This document shows, one piece after another, positions 30,393 to 52,343 of a stretch of 64,000 nt of DNA. The stretch spans positions 1,488,001-1,552,000 of the forward strand of contig NZ_JBAMDA010000001.1 in NCBI RefSeq assembly GCF_036964665.1, given 5' to 3'. Numbering within the stretch: position 1 is the stretch's first letter; each line of letters opens with the position of its first letter. This stretch comes from Nitrobacter sp. NHB1 (lineage in GTDB: Bacteria; Pseudomonadota; Alphaproteobacteria; Rhizobiales; Xanthobacteraceae). The notes under the pieces are model-generated. The model did not search any database and was not told the origin of the DNA. It saw only the letters and a program-made list of their open reading frames with translations. The position numbers were made by a program, and so were the translations under genes.

Positions 30393-30417
30393 AACGCGAC
30401 GTGAGGAGCTATGTTCC
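30393..30417 (-). promoter_or_regulatory. EcfG-type general stress promoter of the DUF892 gene
   Basis: On the minus strand GGAAC (30417-30413), 16 bases, then CGTT (30396-30393): an exact match to the alphaproteobacterial EcfG/SigT consensus GGAAC-N16/17-CGTT. The CGTT ends 34 bases before the ATG, normal for a promoter. DUF892 genes are frequent members of that regulon. Confidence 0.85.
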
Positions 30418-32804: not shown

Positions 32805-33134
32805 ATGATGTTTCTGAACTTGCGCACCAGCGCATTCCGGCTTGCCGTGGCCGCCGTGATGGCGTCACAAATAACCGCTGCCCATTGCGAGGAGGTGTCG
32901 GTGACCATCGACAATTTCACCTTCGAGCCGGCGCAACTGACGGTGAAGGTCGGCACCACCGTGACGTGGACCAACCGCGACGACATTCCGCATACGGTCG
33001 TTTCGGCAGGTCAATTCCGCTCCAAGGCGCTGGATACCGACGACAAATACTCGTTCACCTTCACCGGCGCCGGCAACTACACATATTTTTGCTCGCTGCA
33101 TCCGCACATGGTGGGAACGATCAAGGTTGAGTAA
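32805..33134 (+). CDS. Periplasmic cupredoxin (amicyanin/plastocyanin-like)
   Basis: 109 residues: signal peptide (about 1-28, cleaved near AAHC-EE) and a single blue-copper domain. Copper ligands seen are His of DDIPHTVVS and the C-terminal Cys-x2-His cluster FCSLHPHMVG (Cys, His and Met). Such proteins carry electrons or copper in the periplasm. It follows the metallophosphoesterase by 12 bases, suggesting co-translation. The TTG/ATG of the sigma gene lies just downstream. No redox partner is evident nearby. Confidence 0.9.
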   Translation: MMFLNLRTSAFRLAVAAVMASQITAAHCEEVSVTIDNFTFEPAQLTVKVGTTVTWTNRDDIPHTVVSAGQFRSKALDTDDKYSFTFTGAGNYTYFCSLHPHMVGTIKVE

Positions 33135-33210
33135 CGGCCAAAAGCAAGGCATCACCTTGGGGTTCGGGCGGCGTCACGCGGCCCGAGCCCACCCGGCTGC
33201 GAACACCGCA

Positions 33211-33777
33211 ATGCTGTTTGGTTCATCAAGAGACGATCAGGCCAAAGCGCAGCGCTTTCGCGAGGCCGCGCTGCCCTACCTCGACGACGTCTACACCGTC
33301 GCGCGCTATCTCCTGCGCGACCCCGCCGACGCCGATGATGCCGTGCAGGAGTGCTATCTGCGCGCGCTGAATCATTTCGACAGTTACCGCGGACCGGCGA
33401 TGAAGCCCTGGCTGCTCGCGATCCTGCGCAATGTCTGCCATGCCGAATTCGCCCGCCGCGCCCGATCGAGCACAACGGCCATCGACGACCTGCCCGAAAG
33501 CGCCGAAGCCGCAGCCGCGCCGCTGTGGCAGGAGACCCAGGACACACCGGAAACGCAGGTGTTGCAAAAACGCGATGCGAATTCGATCCGGCGGATGATC
33601 GCGGCACTTGAGGAGCCCTTCAGAGAGACCTTCGTGCTGCGCGAAATCCAGAACCTGTCCTATCGCGAGATCGCCGAGACCGTCGGCGCGCCGGTCGGCA
33701 CCGTCATGTCTCGCCTTGCGCGGGCCCGCGCCATGCTGCGGTCGGCATGGCTCGCGGAACAGGAGCAACCCAAATGA
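33211..33777 (+). CDS. ECF-family RNA polymerase sigma factor
   Basis: 188 residues with sigma region 2 (YLDDVYTVARYLLRDPADAD, then DAVQECYLRAL) and region 4 (ALEEPFRETFVLREIQNLSY, then REIAETVGAPVGTVMSRLARAR). ATG 33211 is chosen; a TTG at 33127 overlapping the cupredoxin stop would add 28 residues without similarity. The stop overlaps the anti-sigma start by four bases (ATGA). It likely directs transcription of its own unit; the target promoter is not identified. Confidence 0.92.
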   Translation: MLFGSSRDDQAKAQRFREAALPYLDDVYTVARYLLRDPADADDAVQECYLRALNHFDSYRGPAMKPWLLAILRNVCHAEFARRARSSTTAIDDLPESAEAAAAPLWQETQDTPETQVLQKRDANSIRRMIAALEEPFRETFVLREIQNLSYREIAETVGAPVGTVMSRLARARAMLRSAWLAEQEQPK

Positions 33778-34535
33778 CCTGCGACGAAGCGGACATCCTT
33801 CTGCACGCGCTGATCGACGGCGAACTCGATGCCGGTCACGCGCGCGAGGTGGAAAACCACGTCGCAGCCTGCAAGCGCTGTACGGCGGACCTCAAAGCTT
33901 ATCGCGAGATGAAGGCGGCGGTGACGACGGCGGACGTTCGCTTTACCGCGCCGTCACACCTGCGCCAGCGCATCGAGGCGGCAATACCACGCTCGCGCGG
34001 CACCAGCCGCCGCTCGCTGCTCGCGGGCTTCGCCATGGGCTCGGTGGTCTCTGCGATAGCTGCGACGGGCCTCGTGGCCATCGTGTTGCGCGACGATGAC
34101 GAGCGGCGCATCGCTTCGGAAGTTGTGTCGGCGCATCTCCGATCGCTGCAGGCGGGGCATCTGACCGACGTACTCTCGACCGACCAGCACACGGTCAAAC
34201 CGTGGTTCAACGGGCGGCTCGACGTATCGCCGCCGGTGATCGACCTGACGGCGCTGGGCTTCACGCTGATCGGCGGCCGGCTCGATTACATCGATGGGCG
34301 GGCCATCGGCGCGGTCGTCTACAAGCGGCGCGCGCACGTCATCAATCTCTTCGTCGCACAAACGCCGAACGCCACGCATAGCGCCGCCCGCACCGAGGAT
34401 ATACAGGGCTTCAACATCCGCCGCTGGCGCGACCACGGTCTGAGCCTCTGGGCGGTGAGCGATCTCAATGCCGACGAACTTGCCGAATTCAGCGAAAAAT
34501 TCGAGAAGGCTATGCAGGCGAACGGGAACGGTTAA
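33774..34535 (+). CDS. Membrane anti-sigma factor with zinc-finger (ZAS) N-terminus
   Basis: 253 residues. The N-terminus has the anti-sigma pattern LHALIDGELDAGHAREVENH followed by the H-x3-C-x2-C zinc motif HVAACKRC. A membrane span lies at about 79-104 and a periplasmic domain of about 145 residues follows. It should hold the upstream sigma factor inactive until an envelope signal arrives. Translationally coupled to the sigma gene by an ATGA overlap. The signal sensed is unknown, but the cupredoxin and phosphoesterase suggest metal or redox stress at the envelope. Confidence 0.88.
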   Translation: MTCDEADILLHALIDGELDAGHAREVENHVAACKRCTADLKAYREMKAAVTTADVRFTAPSHLRQRIEAAIPRSRGTSRRSLLAGFAMGSVVSAIAATGLVAIVLRDDDERRIASEVVSAHLRSLQAGHLTDVLSTDQHTVKPWFNGRLDVSPPVIDLTALGFTLIGGRLDYIDGRAIGAVVYKRRAHVINLFVAQTPNATHSAARTEDIQGFNIRRWRDHGLSLWAVSDLNADELAEFSEKFEKAMQANGNG

Positions 34536-36142: not shown

Positions 36143-36820
36143 ATGCGCAGACTAAATTATTGCAGAATTCTTGCGACGACCTCCCTTGTTGCAGCGGCTC
36201 TGGTGACGGCCGGTTTCGAGCCGGCCGGTGCGGGTGATCCGACCGGCGACTGGCGCGTGGCCGACGGCGTCGCCAACATCCGGGTCGCCGAATGCAACGG
36301 CGCGATGTGGGGCGTCATTGCCTGGGAGAAAATTGCCGGCGGCGTCGACCGGAACAATCCCGATGCCTCGCAAAGGACCAGACCGACGCTGGGTATGCCG
36401 GTTCTCCTCGACATGAAGATGAATGCCGAGAAGGAGGATTGGGAAGGCCACGTCTATAACGCCAAGAACGGCAAGACTTACGAGTCCTCGATCAAGCTGG
36501 AATCGCCCGATAAGCTTGAGATCCAGGGCTGCGTACTCGGCTTCCTCTGCGGCGGCGAGACCTGGACCCGTGTCGCCGGCCCGATTCCAAGCAGCCCATC
36601 CAACGACCTCGCCGGTGGCTCCGCCAACAGTCCAGCCCATAGTCCTGCCCATAGCGCCGCCAAAGGCGCGCCGAAAGCGGGCATGGCTAGGACCAAGACC
36701 TCGCACAAGACCACCGGTCAGAGAACAGCTACCGCCGCCGCCCCCCCGGCTGATCCCGTTGGCGATATCTGCCTACTTCCCGACATCGCGGGGGCGGCCC
36801 ATGAGGGCGGGCTGAAATAG
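36143..36820 (+). CDS. Secreted DUF2147 protein
   Basis: 225 residues with a signal peptide (LATTSLVAAALVTAGFEPAG) and one DUF2147 domain: GDWRVADGVANIRVAECNGA, W-x4-DP-like segments, and a C-terminal CVLGFLCGGETWTRV. The last 70 residues are Ala/Pro/Ser/Thr-rich and disordered. Function unknown; the domain occurs in periplasmic proteins. The start at 36143 puts the signal at the N-terminus; ATG 36119 would add eight residues. Its 3' end overlaps the convergent hpnN 3' end by 48 bases. Confidence 0.78.
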   Translation: MRRLNYCRILATTSLVAAALVTAGFEPAGAGDPTGDWRVADGVANIRVAECNGAMWGVIAWEKIAGGVDRNNPDASQRTRPTLGMPVLLDMKMNAEKEDWEGHVYNAKNGKTYESSIKLESPDKLEIQGCVLGFLCGGETWTRVAGPIPSSPSNDLAGGSANSPAHSPAHSAAKGAPKAGMARTKTSHKTTGQRTATAAAPPADPVGDICLLPDIAGAAHEGGLK

Positions 36821-39388
36821 CAGCACCGCAGCAAGGGTGGTGACGAGCGACAGCGCCAGCAACTTGCCCATGCTCGCCGTGCCCGGATGGCTCGACAGCC
36901 ACAGGCTGCCGAACGCGGTCGCGGTGGTCAGCGCGCTGAAGAAGATCGCCCGCGTCAGGCTCGATTGCAGCAGATTCGTTCTGCCGGATCGCCACGCCGT
37001 GACATAATAAATCTTGAACGCCACGCCGACGCCGAGCAGCAACGGCAGCGCGACGATGTTGGCGAAGTTGAGCGGAAGTCCGATCACCACACAAATTTCC
37101 AGCGTCACAGCCCCGGCGACCAGCAGCGGCACCAGCGTCAGCAGCACGTCGGTTACCCGCCGCAGCGCCAGCCATAGCAGGATGGCGATCGAGATCAGGG
37201 CCCACAGACCCGCCTCGATAAAGGCCCTCACGATGGTGTCGCCGGATTTGAGAATCGATACCGGCCCGCCGATCGCGTTGGGCTCGGCGGCAAGCACGGC
37301 GCCGGCAAACTTTCGCAGCGTCTCATTGTGATCCGGATCGCCGCGCGGCAACGCTTCGACGCGCGTGACGCCGTCGCTCTTCCAGAGCTTCACGAAATCC
37401 GGCGGCAGGGATTTCAGGCTGACAGGTTCGGCCTTTAATAAATTGCGAAGCTGCTCGAACATGATCTTGAGCGGTTCGACGAACACGGCCTGAGCTTTCT
37501 CGCGCCTAGCCTGGTTCGAATCGGCCAACCGGGCAAGATCGTCGGCCAGCCGCTTTGCGGCCGCAGCGCCCGGCCCCTGATTGTCGGCGGCGGCCTTCCG
37601 CAGACTGGCGGCGGCCTCCTTCAGCGCACCGACATTCTCCTCGTCGGACGGTAGCGGATCGATCGAATCCGGATTGAGCGCAGGGCCGAGAACCTTGGCA
37701 CCCTGCGCGATCAGCTTGAGCTTCTCCGGCTGGTCGGCGGGGACAAAGCTGTCGAGCGACCTGGTGCTTGCAACTTCAGGCACCTTGGCGAGCCGGGCCT
37801 CGACCCGCTTCGCGTCCTGCTCGGACTTGACCATCACATTGATGGCGTTCGCGCCGGTCTCCGGATCTTTCCGCAAATCCAGATACGTCGCGATCGATTC
37901 GACTTTCGTGCTCCTCAGATGGATCGGATTGAAATCGAATCGCAGGAAGTAGAGCGCGGGCGATCCGAGAATCACGACCGCAAGCGTGCTGACCACGATC
38001 GCCACGCGATGCTTTTCGAGAAAATGGTCGAGCGGCGCCAGAAACGCGTAGCCGACCGGTTCTTCCTCACCGGGCGGGTTCAGAAGACGCAGCAACGCCG
38101 GAAGAACGGTGATGCTGGCAAGAAAGGCAATCAGCATACCGGCGCCGGCGATCTTTCCGAGTTCCGAAACACCCTTGTAATCCGTCGGCAGGAACGACAG
38201 GAAGCCCGCCGAAGTCGCCATCGCCGCCAGCGACAGCGGGACCGCCGAACGCTTCGCCGCTATAAGAAGAGCCGCTTCCAGATCGTTGGTCTTGAAGCGT
38301 TCGGAGCGATAGCGAACGCTGTACTGAATGCCGAAGTCGACGCCCAGTCCGACAAACAAGACGGCGAACGCAATCGACAGCAGATTGAACGATGTCACCA
38401 TCACGAGGCCAAGCGCCGTCGTGATCGCGAGCCCGACGAACAGCGTTGCGAACACCGCGAAGATGATTTTAGGCGAGCGCAGGGCCAGCCAGAGAATTAC
38501 CAGCACGACCAGCACTGTGCCGATGCCGTTGGCGACGGCGCCCTCCTGCACCGTGGCGAACTCTTCATTGGCGATTGGAACCGGCCCGGTCAGCCGGACG
38601 CGCGCGTCGAACTTGCCGGCAAGATCCAGATCGATGGCGGCTTGCCGGATCGCATCGGTGGCATCCTTGCCGGGCTCGAGTGCGTTGAAATCGAGGTACG
38701 GCTTGACCTGGATCAGCGAGCGGCGGTCGGAAGCGGTCAGCGGCTTGTCGCTTGCGAGCTGACGCCAGGAAAAGGTGCCGCTCCCCCTGGTCAGGACGTC
38801 CTCGAGGCTTTGGGCGATCAGCGAGAACGGCCGCGCCGTGCTGTCCAGCGAGAACTGCCCCCGCTTCAAGCCCGCCAGCGCCGTTTCGAGCGCACCGGTC
38901 AGCCCGCGCAAACTCGGGTCGCCGGCCATGATCTCAACCAGCGGCGCGGCCTCTCCGAATTGACCGGTGACCTGCTTGACCTCGGCGGTCGGCAGGAAAA
39001 GCAGGCCATTGCGCTCAAAAAACGGCCCGCCGCCGAGTAGCTGAACAGCTTCGAAATGGTCGTGGTCGCTGGCGAGCTTCGCTGCCAGCATGGCGCCTGC
39101 GGTGCTGGCAAACTCCGGCGTCGGGGCCTCCACGACCGCAAGGATCAGCCTTTCCTGGTCGAACGCCTTCTCGAAAGCAATGTCGCGCTGCCGCCAATCC
39201 AGATCGGGCGATATCAACTTATTGATATCAGTGTTGATTTGGAAGTTTCTCGCCGTATAAAAGACCGCCCCGGACGCCAGCACAATCGCAACCAACGCAG
39301 TAACCAAAGCAAATCGTGTGCAAATCTTAACGATTGAAACAACAATACCTGTCAGCACATTCTTTCTTTCTGCTACCGCAATACGCAA
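36773..39388 (-). CDS. hpnN: Hopanoid RND transporter HpnN
   Basis: RND-superfamily exporter that moves hopanoids from the inner to the outer membrane, as shown for HpnN of Rhodopseudomonas palustris and Burkholderia. 871 residues: an N-terminal span, a periplasmic loop with QINTDINKLISPDLDWRQRD, five spans with the LSIAFAVLFVGLGVDFGIQY motif, a second periplasmic loop, and a second five-span block (NIVALPLLLGVGVAFKIYYV). The frame opens with TTG 39388; a GTG at 39358 after a purine-rich stretch may be the true start. It is divergent from ispH-hpnH across a 544-base control region. Confidence 0.93.
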   Translation of the reverse strand: MRIAVAERKNVLTGIVVSIVKICTRFALVTALVAIVLASGAVFYTARNFQINTDINKLISPDLDWRQRDIAFEKAFDQERLILAVVEAPTPEFASTAGAMLAAKLASDHDHFEAVQLLGGGPFFERNGLLFLPTAEVKQVTGQFGEAAPLVEIMAGDPSLRGLTGALETALAGLKRGQFSLDSTARPFSLIAQSLEDVLTRGSGTFSWRQLASDKPLTASDRRSLIQVKPYLDFNALEPGKDATDAIRQAAIDLDLAGKFDARVRLTGPVPIANEEFATVQEGAVANGIGTVLVVLVILWLALRSPKIIFAVFATLFVGLAITTALGLVMVTSFNLLSIAFAVLFVGLGVDFGIQYSVRYRSERFKTNDLEAALLIAAKRSAVPLSLAAMATSAGFLSFLPTDYKGVSELGKIAGAGMLIAFLASITVLPALLRLLNPPGEEEPVGYAFLAPLDHFLEKHRVAIVVSTLAVVILGSPALYFLRFDFNPIHLRSTKVESIATYLDLRKDPETGANAINVMVKSEQDAKRVEARLAKVPEVASTRSLDSFVPADQPEKLKLIAQGAKVLGPALNPDSIDPLPSDEENVGALKEAAASLRKAAADNQGPGAAAAKRLADDLARLADSNQARREKAQAVFVEPLKIMFEQLRNLLKAEPVSLKSLPPDFVKLWKSDGVTRVEALPRGDPDHNETLRKFAGAVLAAEPNAIGGPVSILKSGDTIVRAFIEAGLWALISIAILLWLALRRVTDVLLTLVPLLVAGAVTLEICVVIGLPLNFANIVALPLLLGVGVAFKIYYVTAWRSGRTNLLQSSLTRAIFFSALTTATAFGSLWLSSHPGTASMGKLLALSLVTTLAAVLLFQPALMGRPRDVGK

Positions 39389-39683
39389 AAGGCGTGGAAT
39401 CCCGGTCCGGTTCTTCTGTCTGATCTAGTTGAGTGAATTTGACATTCGATACCCACTTTACGGCAAATCTGGCAAGCGAATGTCAGATTCAAAACTCCAC
39501 ATAAACCCTAATAGTTGCTTGGGGTTTTTTATCCCGTTGTCTTCAGGGCGCGACAAAGTGGCATAAAACGCGTCGTTGTCTTGATTCGGGGTGATTGCCG
39601 GACGATTTGAACCGACTTGATATAGATAGCTTTGCGGATGACAAAGTGACGAACAGGTGAGGCCATCTGCTTCGGCCGATTCC

Positions 39684-39715
39684 GTATCATGATACCAGTC
39701 ACTGTATCTTGATAC
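39684..39715. promoter_or_regulatory. Tandem palindromic operator between hpnN and ispH
   Basis: GTATCATGATAC (39684-39695, perfect 12-bp palindrome) and GTATCTTGATAC (39704-39715) are spaced exactly 20 bases centre to centre, two helical turns apart. This geometry fits two dimers binding cooperatively on one DNA face. It lies 218 bases before the ispH start and about 300 before hpnN. The binding protein is unknown. The rest of 39389-39932 shows no gene I accept. Confidence 0.6.
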
Positions 39716-39932
39716 CATCGAATGTCCTTCGTTCATCAATCGTAGCGGCCGAAAGGTCTGCGGCATTGGGACATTTTGTTCTGACGCAGAGGGCCGTGTA
39801 TGTCATAGCGTTGAAATCCCGGGATCGCGACCCATAGATTAAGCGTCTGTGACTTTTCCTGAAGACACGTGTGATTTTAAGAAGAAACGTTCCGACCTGT
39901 ATGGAGTTAAAGTATAATGCGTAAGGTGCAAA

Positions 39933-40877
39933 TTGACTGACGCTCGCCCGATCGAAGTTCTCCTGGCGCAGCCGCGCGGATTTTGCGCGGGCGTCGTCCG
40001 CGCGATCGAGACCGTCGAGCGCGCGCTGGAGAAGTACGGCCCCCCGGTGTACGTCCGCCACGAGATCGTTCACAACAAGTACGTCGTCGAAAGCCTGAAG
40101 AACAAGGGCGCGATCTTCGTCGAGAATCTGTCCGAGGTTCCGACAAAAGCCGTCACCGTGTTCAGCGCCCATGGCGTTGCGCGGAGCGTGGAAGAAGAGG
40201 CTGCCGCACGCGGCTTGCCCGTGCTCAACGCCACCTGCCCGCTGGTGACAAAGGTTCACAATCAGGGCAAACGCTACATGTCCAAGGGACGGGCCCTGGT
40301 CCTGATCGGCCACGCCGGCCATCCCGAGGTTGAAGGAACCATGGGACAGGTTCCGGGTCCCGTTCTGCTGGTCCAGGACGTCGACGACGTCGCGGCCCTG
40401 ACGCTGCACGCCGACACCCCGGTCGCCTATATCACTCAGACGACACTCAGCGTCGACGACACCAAGGACATCATTCTCGCGCTCCAGCAGCGTTTCACCG
40501 ATATCCAGGGCCCTGATACACGGGATATCTGCTATGCAACACAAAACCGGCAATCTGCGGTAAGAGATCTCAGCAAGCTGGTGGATGTCATTCTCGTAGT
40601 CGGAGCAACCAACAGTTCAAACTCGAACCGACTGCGCGAAATCGGCACCGAAGTCGGCGTTGCAAGTTATCTCATCGCGGATGGGAGTGAACTCAACGCG
40701 GAGTGGCTGAAAGATGCGAAAACCGTGGGCATCACGGCCGGCGCATCGGCGCCGGAGGTGCTTGTCGACGATGTCATCGAGGCCCTGAGGCGCATCGGTC
40801 CGGTTGCTGTCTCGGTGCTGCCGGGACGGGAAGAAAACATCGAATTCCGCCTTCCGTCTGAACTGACCACAGCCTGA
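39933..40877 (+). CDS. ispH: 4-hydroxy-3-methylbut-2-enyl diphosphate reductase
   Basis: Last enzyme of the MEP pathway, making IPP and DMAPP with an iron-sulfur cluster. 314 residues. The three cluster Cys are seen in QPRGFCAGV (Cys18), [11 protein letters not shown] and [10 protein letters not shown]; His residues of VRHEIVHN and [11 protein letters not shown] also match. TTG start at 39933 with AAGGTG six bases upstream. It precedes hpnH by 47 bases, so precursor supply and hopanoid side-chain addition are likely cotranscribed. Second ispH copies are common in this family of bacteria, so this may be hopanoid-dedicated. Confidence 0.95.
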
Positions 40878-40924: not shown

Positions 40925-42094
40925 ATGGCAATACCGTTTTTTAAAGAACTGAAGATCGGCGGATATCTGATCAAGCAGAAGATGCTGGGCCGCAAGCGCT
41001 ATCCGCTTGTGCTGATGCTCGAGCCGCTGTTTCGCTGCAATCTCGCCTGCGCCGGGTGCGGCAAGATCGACTATCCCGATGCGATCCTCAACCGTCGCAT
41101 GACTGCTCAGGAATGCTGGGACGCGGCCGAGGAGTGCGGCGCGCCGATGGTTGCCATTCCCGGCGGCGAGCCGCTGATCCACAAGGAGATCGGCGAGATC
41201 GTGCGTGGCCTCGTCGCGCGCAAGAAGTTCGTCTCGCTCTGCACCAACGCGATGCTTTTGGAAAAGAAGCTCGATCTGTTCGAGCCCTCCCCGTACCTGT
41301 TCTTTTCGGTCCATCTCGATGGCCTGAAGGAGCACCACGACGAGTCCGTATGCCAGGATGGCGTGTTCGACCGCGCCGTCTCCGCGATCAAGGCGGCGAA
41401 GGCGCGCGGCTTCACCGTCAACGTCAACGCCACGATCTTCGACAACTATCCGGCCGAGGAAATCGCAAAGTTCCTCGACTTCACGACCGAGCTTGGTGTC
41501 GGTGTCTCGATGTCGCCTGGCTACGCCTATGAGCGCGCTCCCGATCAGGAGCACTTCCTGAACCGAACCAAGACCAAGAAGCTGTTCCGCGACGTCTTCG
41601 CGCTCGGCAAGGGCAAGAAGTGGAACTTCATGCACTCCGGCCTGTTTCTCGATTTCCTGGCCGGCAATCAGGAGTATCATTGCACGCCGTGGGGAATGCC
41701 GGCGCGCAACATCTTCGGCTGGCAGAAACCCTGCTACCTGCTCGGCGAGGGCTACACCAAGACCTTCAAGGAATTGATGGAAACCACCGACTGGGACAGC
41801 TACGGCACCGGCAAGTACGAAAAGTGCGCCAACTGCATGGCGCATTGCGGTTACGAACCGACCGCCGCCACTGCGGCTCTGAACAATCCGCTCAAGACGA
41901 TGTGGGTGGCGCTGCGCGGCGTCCGCACCACCGGTCCGATGGCGCCCGAGATCGACCTCACCAAGCAACGCCCGGCGCAGTACATTTTCGCCCAGCAGGT
42001 TGAGAAAACGCTGACGGAGATCCGCAAGGACGAGGCCGCGGCCGCCGCCGCCAAACAAGCGGCAAAAGAGCAAAAGGCTTCCACCGCAGCCTGA
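40925..42094 (+). CDS. hpnH: Adenosyl-hopane synthase HpnH (radical SAM)
   Basis: Joins the 5'-deoxyadenosyl group of SAM to diploptene, giving adenosyl hopane, the first step of C35 hopanoid synthesis. 389 residues. The radical-SAM cluster motif is CNLACAGC (Cys38, 42, 45) after RYPLVLMLEPLFR. GGEPL follows, and a C-terminal Cys group KCANCMAHCGYEPTA is the SPASM-like/DUF3463 part. An Ala/Lys-rich tail ends the protein. It pairs functionally with hpnG, whose 3' end faces it. A 10-bp stem (42122-42154) follows the stop. Confidence 0.96.
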   Translation: MAIPFFKELKIGGYLIKQKMLGRKRYPLVLMLEPLFRCNLACAGCGKIDYPDAILNRRMTAQECWDAAEECGAPMVAIPGGEPLIHKEIGEIVRGLVARKKFVSLCTNAMLLEKKLDLFEPSPYLFFSVHLDGLKEHHDESVCQDGVFDRAVSAIKAAKARGFTVNVNATIFDNYPAEEIAKFLDFTTELGVGVSMSPGYAYERAPDQEHFLNRTKTKKLFRDVFALGKGKKWNFMHSGLFLDFLAGNQEYHCTPWGMPARNIFGWQKPCYLLGEGYTKTFKELMETTDWDSYGTGKYEKCANCMAHCGYEPTAATAALNNPLKTMWVALRGVRTTGPMAPEIDLTKQRPAQYIFAQQVEKTLTEIRKDEAAAAAAKQAAKEQKASTAA

Positions 42095-49976: not shown

Positions 49977-52343
49977 CTATTTCAGCGCCTTCGTCTGGCC
50001 GCCGCGGCGCAACCGCTCCGCAAAGGTAATCAGCCACATCGCCGTCGGGCGCAGGATCAGGAAATCCGCGGCCAGGGCGGCGATCATGGCAAAGGCGCTG
50101 AGCCAGCCGAACAGGCGCAGCGACGGCAGATCCGAGAACACCGTCACCACCAGGCCGCACGCCAGCACCACGGTGGTCAGGATCAGCGCCGGCCCCATCA
50201 GCACGGTCGCGCGCTCGACCGCCTCGGCTGCGCTGACGCCCGGCTTGCTCTCGGACCGCAGGCGATTGAGGAAGTGGATGGTCGCACTGAGCCCGAGGCC
50301 GAACGAGACCGTGAGCGCGACCACGCTCGCGAACTGCAGCCCCTCCCCGAGCGCCCACAATACCGTGCCGGACAGCACGACAGGGAAAATCCCGGGCAGG
50401 ATGCAGGCAAACATCACAACGACCGAGCGGAATGCCAGCCCCATGAACACCGCGACCAGCGCAAACTCGATCGTGAGACCGTGGTTGAGCTTCTCGATCA
50501 TGCTGGCGCTGTTGCGCGCGGCGATGGCCGACAGGCCGGTGACGGCGATTTCATAACCGGGGTGAGCGTGCCGGACCGCGTCCATGGCGTGGTCGAGTTT
50601 CTCCACTATCGGCAGAATCTGACTCGAGTCGCGATCGGGCACGCGGCCCGACACCACGACCGCCGTCTGGTCCTTCGAAATAAAGCGGCGCACCAGATGC
50701 TCGGGGAGGACGCTGACATATTCCTTGAGCGTCGCAACGTCGTTGCTGCCGGCCTTTTCGGCGAGCCACCGCCGCAGTGTTTCGAGCGACCAGACGTTGC
50801 CGACGCCGGCCTGCTCCTCGACCAGCTTGTGGACCTCGGCGATGGTGGCAAGCGTCTGCGGCGAATACAGCGTCTCACCCTTGGGGAATTCGATCAGGAC
50901 ATCGATCGGGTTGGCGCCGGTGAGTTTTGCATCGAGACGGCTGCTGGCCGCCACCGCCTGCTGCTTGTCCGGCACCTGATCCGCGAGCCGGTAACGCGGC
51001 TCGAGGTTAGCGTAGACCACCGCCAGGCCGCCAACCACCACCAGGGCAAGCAGGCTGAAGAAGCCGGGATGCCCCACCATCCGCACCGCGATCCAGGCGC
51101 AGAAGCGGCGCAGCACCTGCACGCCCCAATCCGACGTTTTGAATTTCTCCGCGAAACGCTGTTCGTTGCGCACCAGCAGAACCCCGAACACCGGCACCAG
51201 CAACAGCACCGCGAGCAGCGCGATGACGGTCGCCAGCAGGCCCGCCTCGCCAAAGCTGCGGATCAGGTCTGAATTCGAGAACTGCAGCGCGATGAACGAG
51301 ATTCCCGCGGTCGCATGGGTCAGCACGCAGGCTGGGCCGACCACCAGAACGGCATTGCGGAACGCGGAATACTTGTCCTCGCCCGCGATCAGGCGGTCGC
51401 GCGCCGCGAACGTCAACTGCATCGAATCGGAGAAACTGATGACCATGATGAGCGGCGTCATCACGTTGAGGAACATGTTGAGGCTGAAACCGGCCCAGCC
51501 CAGCACGCCCAACGCCAGCAGGATCGCAAGCAACGGCGGGAACGCCGCGGCAACCATGAAGGAGACCTTGCGGAAAAACACGATCGCGATCAGACAGCCG
51601 GCCAGAATGCCGGCGACGTTGTAGATGATGCCGTCGCGCTCCACCGCGTTGCGAATTTCAAGCTGCATCACCGGCACACCGGAAAGCTCTTTGGTGAGGC
51701 CGGTGGAGGCGAGATCGTCGTTCATAACCTTGCGGATCTGCCCGACGGTGGTGCTCAACCCGCTGCTTTCGACGATCGACGGCTGCAGCGACAGCACGAC
51801 CAGCGCCAGCGTGCCGTCGTCGGACAGCAGCTTGCCGCGAATGATCTCGTTGGATTTCACGGTCTCGATGAATTTGTCGTAGTCGGCGCCTTTCGGCAGT
51901 TCGGACGGAAACAGCGCCGCCGGCAGCTTGCCGGGTTCGGGCGCCTGACGCGCCGAGAACAACGAGATCAGGCCGCGCACGCCATCGACCAGTTGCAGGT
52001 CGGTGACCATATCCCGCAGCTTTTCAAGATTGTCGCGTTCGAGCAGCGTCTTGCCCTCAATCACGACCAGCACGTCGAACTCGCTCGACGGGAAGCGCTT
52101 GGTCACTTCCTCGTACTGATGATACTCCTTGGTGTCGGAGCGGAACAACTGGCTGAGCGAATCGTCGATCTTGATGCGGTGGATTCCGAACACCGCACCG
52201 ATGACCAAGGCGAGCAGAATGATGCAGGACAGGATCGGCGCACGCACCGCAATCAGACCGATCCGCTCAAGTCCGAAGGCGATGCTGAGCGACCGGCCGA
52301 TCGGGGCGCCCTGGTCGGCAGCATCGCGGTTTCGCTCAAGCAT
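49977..52343 (-). CDS. RND (MMPL-type) exporter next to hpnP
   Basis: 788-residue RND-superfamily permease with the usual duplicated layout: one span plus periplasmic loop (RIKIDDSLSQLFRSDTKEYH), five spans (NVMTPLIMVISFSDSMQLTF), a second loop and five spans (SVVALTVSFGLGLSATIHFL). It shares layout with HpnN but is a separate branch. It follows hpnP on the same strand with 236 bases between. I infer export of a hopanoid or other lipid, perhaps the 2-methylated product; no substrate evidence exists in the sequence. Confidence 0.85.
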   Translation of the reverse strand: MLERNRDAADQGAPIGRSLSIAFGLERIGLIAVRAPILSCIILLALVIGAVFGIHRIKIDDSLSQLFRSDTKEYHQYEEVTKRFPSSEFDVLVVIEGKTLLERDNLEKLRDMVTDLQLVDGVRGLISLFSARQAPEPGKLPAALFPSELPKGADYDKFIETVKSNEIIRGKLLSDDGTLALVVLSLQPSIVESSGLSTTVGQIRKVMNDDLASTGLTKELSGVPVMQLEIRNAVERDGIIYNVAGILAGCLIAIVFFRKVSFMVAAAFPPLLAILLALGVLGWAGFSLNMFLNVMTPLIMVISFSDSMQLTFAARDRLIAGEDKYSAFRNAVLVVGPACVLTHATAGISFIALQFSNSDLIRSFGEAGLLATVIALLAVLLLVPVFGVLLVRNEQRFAEKFKTSDWGVQVLRRFCAWIAVRMVGHPGFFSLLALVVVGGLAVVYANLEPRYRLADQVPDKQQAVAASSRLDAKLTGANPIDVLIEFPKGETLYSPQTLATIAEVHKLVEEQAGVGNVWSLETLRRWLAEKAGSNDVATLKEYVSVLPEHLVRRFISKDQTAVVVSGRVPDRDSSQILPIVEKLDHAMDAVRHAHPGYEIAVTGLSAIAARNSASMIEKLNHGLTIEFALVAVFMGLAFRSVVVMFACILPGIFPVVLSGTVLWALGEGLQFASVVALTVSFGLGLSATIHFLNRLRSESKPGVSAAEAVERATVLMGPALILTTVVLACGLVVTVFSDLPSLRLFGWLSAFAMIAALAADFLILRPTAMWLITFAERLRRGGQTKALK

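Follow-up and report, generated by a model that had tools for sequence, protein, structure and literature searches.

A probable CenR-type box and a separate operator-like element in the putative shared control region of hpnN and ispH-hpnH

The intergenic stretch between hpnN, which runs leftwards, and ispH-hpnH, which runs rightwards, is best read as a shared control region of these hopanoid genes. Hopanoids are bacterial sterol-like lipids. The explanation that accounts best for the observations, and which we hold with about even confidence, is that this region combines a CenR-type box (block A) with a separate operator-like site (element B). Positions, conservation, the motif match and the spacings, whether near-constant or variable, were read directly from the window, i.e., the whole 64,000-nucleotide stretch of DNA that was analysed, and from related loci. 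The features are as follows.

36773..39358, minus strand: hpnN, hopanoid transporter (NF052374, 1316.8 bits, cut-off 1100)
39619..39624, minus strand: putative hpnN -10, TATATC, by consensus reading only
39641..39646, minus strand: putative hpnN -35, CTTTGT, weak in the window genome (-3.6 bits)
39643..39662: block A, AAAGTGACGAACAGGTGAGG, a CenR-type motif with TGA-N8-TGA at 39647-39660
39683..39696, plus strand: element B, site 1 (palindrome 39684-39695), conserved as TAyyATrnTACC
39704..39715, plus strand: site 2, a second palindrome, intact in the window genome only
39774..39810, plus strand: conserved stretch 5' of ispH, from a by-eye alignment with TTTTTTGACACAAAG-type sequence of Bradyrhizobium
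39933..40877, plus strand: ispH, hopanoid-linked copy, with a TTG start at 39933 (NF002188, 502.9 bits, cut-off 420)
40925..42094, plus strand: hpnH (TIGR03470, 567.7 bits, cut-off 225)

The proteins encoded by hpnN, ispH, and hpnH each score above their NCBIfam cut-offs, and the region between them is intergenic, which bears out the placement of the palindromes in a divergent hpnN / ispH-hpnH control region by an earlier note on this DNA. The GTG start of hpnN at 39358 is our choice within an open frame that extends from 39388, and the TTG start of ispH is kept in all nine genomes of the window genus that have the locus (minus-strand loci were turned before alignment). The conserved stretch at 39774..39810 is a possible ispH promoter region.

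Block A is strongly conserved in the family as AAAGTGACGAACnnGTGAGG. Within it, TGACGAACAGGTGAG fits the pattern TGA-N8-TGA and scores 12.1 bits with a CenR matrix of 31 published sites, ranking eighth among about 128,000 window positions. In PMC9275681, TGA-N8-TGA is the envelope-stress motif of CenR, from the CenKR two-component system of Rhodobacter sphaeroides; for R. palustris and further alphaproteobacteria, the authors also report it 5' of conserved targets, tolQ is a conserved CenR target, and 28 of the 31 published sites point with transcription. Block A shares this motif with the R. sphaeroides sites and adjoins the putative hpnN -35, but differs from them in that its better match is on the strand that faces away from hpnN, with 12.1 bits on the plus strand (ispH direction) versus 9.5 on the minus strand (hpnN direction). 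A CenR-type response regulator of the OmpR family probably binds at block A, a motif that the earlier note leaves unmentioned.

TGACGN5GTGA has two matches in the window where 0.60 are expected, a count reached by 11 of 100 shuffles, and a relaxed block A with up to two mismatches is found 19 times in the genome versus 13 for the reversed control, which is no great excess. No TGA-N8-TGA lies within 350 bp 5' of tolQ, and the best matrix matches there are more than 1 kb off. The genome holds 13 OmpR-type DNA-binding domains; no CenR model is listed among the NCBIfam matches of six of these 13 regulators, and L258 is our guess at the CenR-like one.

Spacing was assessed in 49 loci (effective number 33), of which 30 came from a pattern containing element B and 19 had B picked by eye on TACC, so that TACC is at 100% by construction. 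Outside this set are L009 and L195, four loci that are the same as others (L041, L046, L067, and L091), and four that are near-identical to L057 (L050, L052, L053, and L054). Block A sits directly 5' of the -35 of the putative hpnN promoter, and this -35 has a mean score over the loci of 1.09 versus -0.71 when shuffled. The distance from block A to the putative hpnN -10 is 26 nt in every one of the 37 Bradyrhizobium loci that gave a match and 23-26 nt in seven loci of the window genus. Overall it is 23-26 nt in 44 of the 49 loci, the -10 being without a match in five. From block A to the end of element B, the distance is 47-67 nt and thus varies over 20 nt. With a near-constant distance on one side and a variable one on the other, we read block A as part of the hpnN promoter and element B as independent of it.

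In the mechanism that we propose, a CenR-type OmpR-family regulator at block A would act on hpnN from just 5' of the -35. Element B (site 1) would be a separate conserved operator-like site between the two promoters, read by a DNA-binding protein that is probably a dimer with the half-site TACC/GGTA, and in the window genome this presumed operator takes the form of a perfect palindrome with a second copy (site 2) 20 bp further. Binding, the identities of the proteins, and the sign of regulation are what we infer from these sequences.

At the hpnN-ispH locus, element B lies within one mismatch of GTATCATRATACC in seven of the nine genus genomes, the exceptions being G001 (AATACCACAATACC) and G004, and site 1 in these genomes reads TATCATAATACC or a near form. 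The matches to GTATCATRATACC in the genus amount to 18 rows, nine of them at the locus, versus four for the reversed-pattern control; among the rows elsewhere, flanks are shared only by L023 and L032, which are one site read on both strands, and L029. The earlier note had made its case depend in part on conservation in related hpnN-ispH spacers. Site 1 is conserved there, and the proposed element therefore survives, whereas site 2, and with it the pair, is not conserved.

Over the 49 loci, element B reads C..TA-YY-AT-A-A-TACC-K-N-AAA. Its core, TA-yy-AT-rr-TA, is self-complementary and the CC on the ispH side has no mirror; TA-N6-TA is symmetric but the CC/GG arm is not, as G stands opposite the invariant CC in only 6% of loci at -13 and 33% at -12. 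Perfect 5-bp arms are found in six of the 49 loci, including L217 from the genus Bradyrhizobium, whose 14-mer is identical to that of window site 1. Perfect palindromes thus recur as the extreme case of an otherwise less symmetric element, and the symmetric form that the earlier note described is not the conserved one. Just 3' of B, [CT]CGGTAACC is seen in L041, L042, L043, L063, L064, and L091, where GGTAACC follows TACC by 7-8 nt; this GGTAACC contains the GGTA half-site too and may represent an additional one.

GGTATN4ATACC is not in excess in the genome, with 23 sites at up to one mismatch versus 32 for the reversed control. A single-target regulator would not need a regulon. Of the operator for a hopanoid regulator suggested in the earlier note, what stands is that site 1 marks a conserved element, while no regulon is visible in the genome and no regulator was found.

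In the main alternative, element B would be the -10 of a promoter for ispH-hpnH whose activator might sit at block A, with the palindrome a by-product of a TATAAT-like core, which is possible although we consider it rather unlikely. Consistent with this, the core reads [TC]ATAAT over the 49 loci, with A at 97% and T at 100% at the key places and A enriched 6-8 nt 3' of this T, and the better CenR matrix score of block A is the one in the ispH direction. The search for a -35 hexamer 16-18 nt from B gave four, none, one, and one of the 49 loci above 4 bits in four registers, the best of which is slightly above the shuffles (mean -0.14 versus -0.87). No conserved -35 column is seen 5' of B, whereas the hpnN -35, taken as a control, stands clear of its shuffles, and the consensus promoter scan returned no promoter at B. 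The flanking TA and ACC are also more constrained than a -10 requires, and the spacing from A to B varies over 20 nt. L042, L043, L064, and window site 2 have lost the key A and the TATAAT-like hexamer together with the central AT, and yet their outer arms still match, which an operator fits better than a -10. The operator proposed here also explains the symmetric cases of B and its free spacing.

Another possibility is that block A alone matters and that element B and the palindromes are incidental spacer sequence, which is unlikely given how often the two occur together. We collected 83 ispH upstream regions: nine from the genus, 23 further loci, 40 stretches from a family search (73 of 149 genomes matched; G056, G065, and G143 were left out), and 11 of 80 named loci (L064-L071, L077, L081, and L091). 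Block A, at up to five mismatches, is present in 28 of the 83. In the 55 nt following block A in these 28 loci, chosen by A alone, TA..AT..TACC is found in 16 and TA-N6-TACC in 21, whereas mononucleotide shuffles give 0.03 and 0.43. Seven of the 28 lack TA-N6-TACC, namely the near-identical L050, L052, L053, L054, and L057 with AAGATATTACC, L048 with AAGATAGTACC, and L195, where the match to block A seems spurious. Loss or degeneration of B in some loci with A (L009, L013, L048, and L050-L057) and a second palindrome unique to the window genome would be expected if B were incidental.

Of 195 genomes from the genus Bradyrhizobium, which belongs to the same family as the window genome, 32 have the A+B composite, each in a single copy, and none has a match to the reversed-pattern control, counts that are inflated by kinship among the genomes. 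Two of the 32 matches were without the locus and were left out of later analysis, and the strict pattern is absent from the other 163 genomes. This genus, to which G140 belongs, was taken as Bradyrhizobium because its locus L210 has the same sequence as L067, a locus of B. macuxiense. In six loci, hpnN lies beside ispH without block A (L044, L045, L047, L055, L056, and L059), and none of these has a close B. We also considered A and B as a feature of hpnN independent of ispH; in all 20 genomes without A before ispH, the hpnN upstream region has neither A (best 5-7 mismatches of 16) nor B. In some genera (L051, L058, L060, and L061), the sequence 5' of ispH is coding, presumably dxs, and ispH therefore does not directly adjoin hpnN.

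The two palindromes themselves, GTATCATGATAC at 39684-39695 (site 1) and GTATCTTGATAC at 39704-39715 (site 2), lie between hpnN and ispH-hpnH as reported earlier and also form a 14-bp direct repeat, GTATCwTGATACCA. Their centers are indeed 20 bp apart, although, with 10.5 bp to the turn, this corresponds to about 1.9 turns and not to exactly two. GTATCNNGATAC at up to one mismatch has two matches in the 64-kb window versus 0.53 expected, and since 10 of 100 shuffles reach two, this count alone is not striking. Exact GTATCNNGATAC occurs at four places in the genome (3,794,501 bases), two being sites 1 and 2 and the other two (G000:C1:1564596 and 1614227) lying inside open frames. The genome search for the pair, which the earlier note had proposed, returned a single occurrence in 3.79 Mb, at the hpnN-ispH locus; by our estimate, if four sites were placed at random, two of them would lie within 50 bp with a chance of about 2 in 10,000.

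That one dimeric regulator uses these palindromes as a phased pair of operators, as first suggested, is improbable. The pair is the sole one in the genome, and in G004 (locus L009) a TACC is followed 20 bp on by another TACC, within TACTTGGATACC, which makes up a degenerate site 2. Site 2 is intact, however, in only one of the nine genus genomes, that of the window, and when the 45 nt that follow B were scanned in the 49 loci, only the window had a second-site candidate. The paired layout is thus lineage-specific, and paired, phased binding is without support beyond the window genome and the degenerate site 2 of a single relative. On inspection by eye, we dropped the idea that site 2 arose by a 20-bp tandem duplication, because L009 has a partial site 2 without the extra stretch, and the extra stretch of the window lies after site 2. 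TCACTGTATCTTGAT at 39699-39713 overlaps site 2 and, at 12.5 bits with the CenR matrix, ranks sixth in the window; a further CenR site is not claimed here, as no counterpart of it is listed in relatives.

Several other features were observed around the locus. A terminator-like stem followed by a T run is located at 39505-39536, between hpnN and the control region (one found, 0.4 expected), and none was seen in the alignment of the other eight genus genomes. An RNA element at 39200-40000 was rejected, the only Rfam hit scoring 17.5 bits, far under the cut-off of 57. A gene for an ECF-type sigma factor, with a zf-HC2 anti-sigma gene after it, lies at 33127-34535, about 3-6 kb from hpnN, and another MMPL-family transporter gene is found close to the hopanoid genes at 49977-52343. 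The genome has another ispH at G000:C1:2851395-2852330, which shares 53% identity with the hopanoid-linked copy, and eight of the nine genus genomes have both copies.

Little is known about the control of hopanoid genes, and the one case that we met is that of EcfG and hpnP, which is similar in that a hopanoid gene is controlled in a related bacterium. The EcfG promoter, GGAAC-N16-18-CGTT, is not present at the hpnN-ispH control region, and its only match in the window (30393-30417) is at chance level. Palindromic operators of the TetR type and the phlO type have half-sites TATCAT/GATA or GATAC/GTATC. These half-sites resemble those of element B, but they are spaced differently, B is asymmetric, and no gene for a regulator of either type was linked to the hpnN-ispH locus. 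Among the papers listed in searches of open-licence PubMed Central, none on element B or on CenR with hopanoids was found, the sole one containing both words, "cenr" and hopanoid, being on the Chlorochromatium consortium. The word hopanoid has no occurrence in PMC9275681, the main text of PMC4842269 does not mention hopanoids, and a word search of PMC10746171 gave no match.

Element B offers a precise bait with which the second regulator could be sought. If true, a conserved CenR-type box at the gene for the hopanoid transporter would tie the pathway of a sterol-like lipid to an envelope-stress system. Taken one step further, and as a tentative proposal that we think rather unlikely, Bradyrhizobium and the window genus may link both the transport of hopanoids and the synthesis of their side chains to envelope stress by means of a CenR box at hpnN, together with a new single-target regulator that would read element B and whose operator would be doubled in the window genome.
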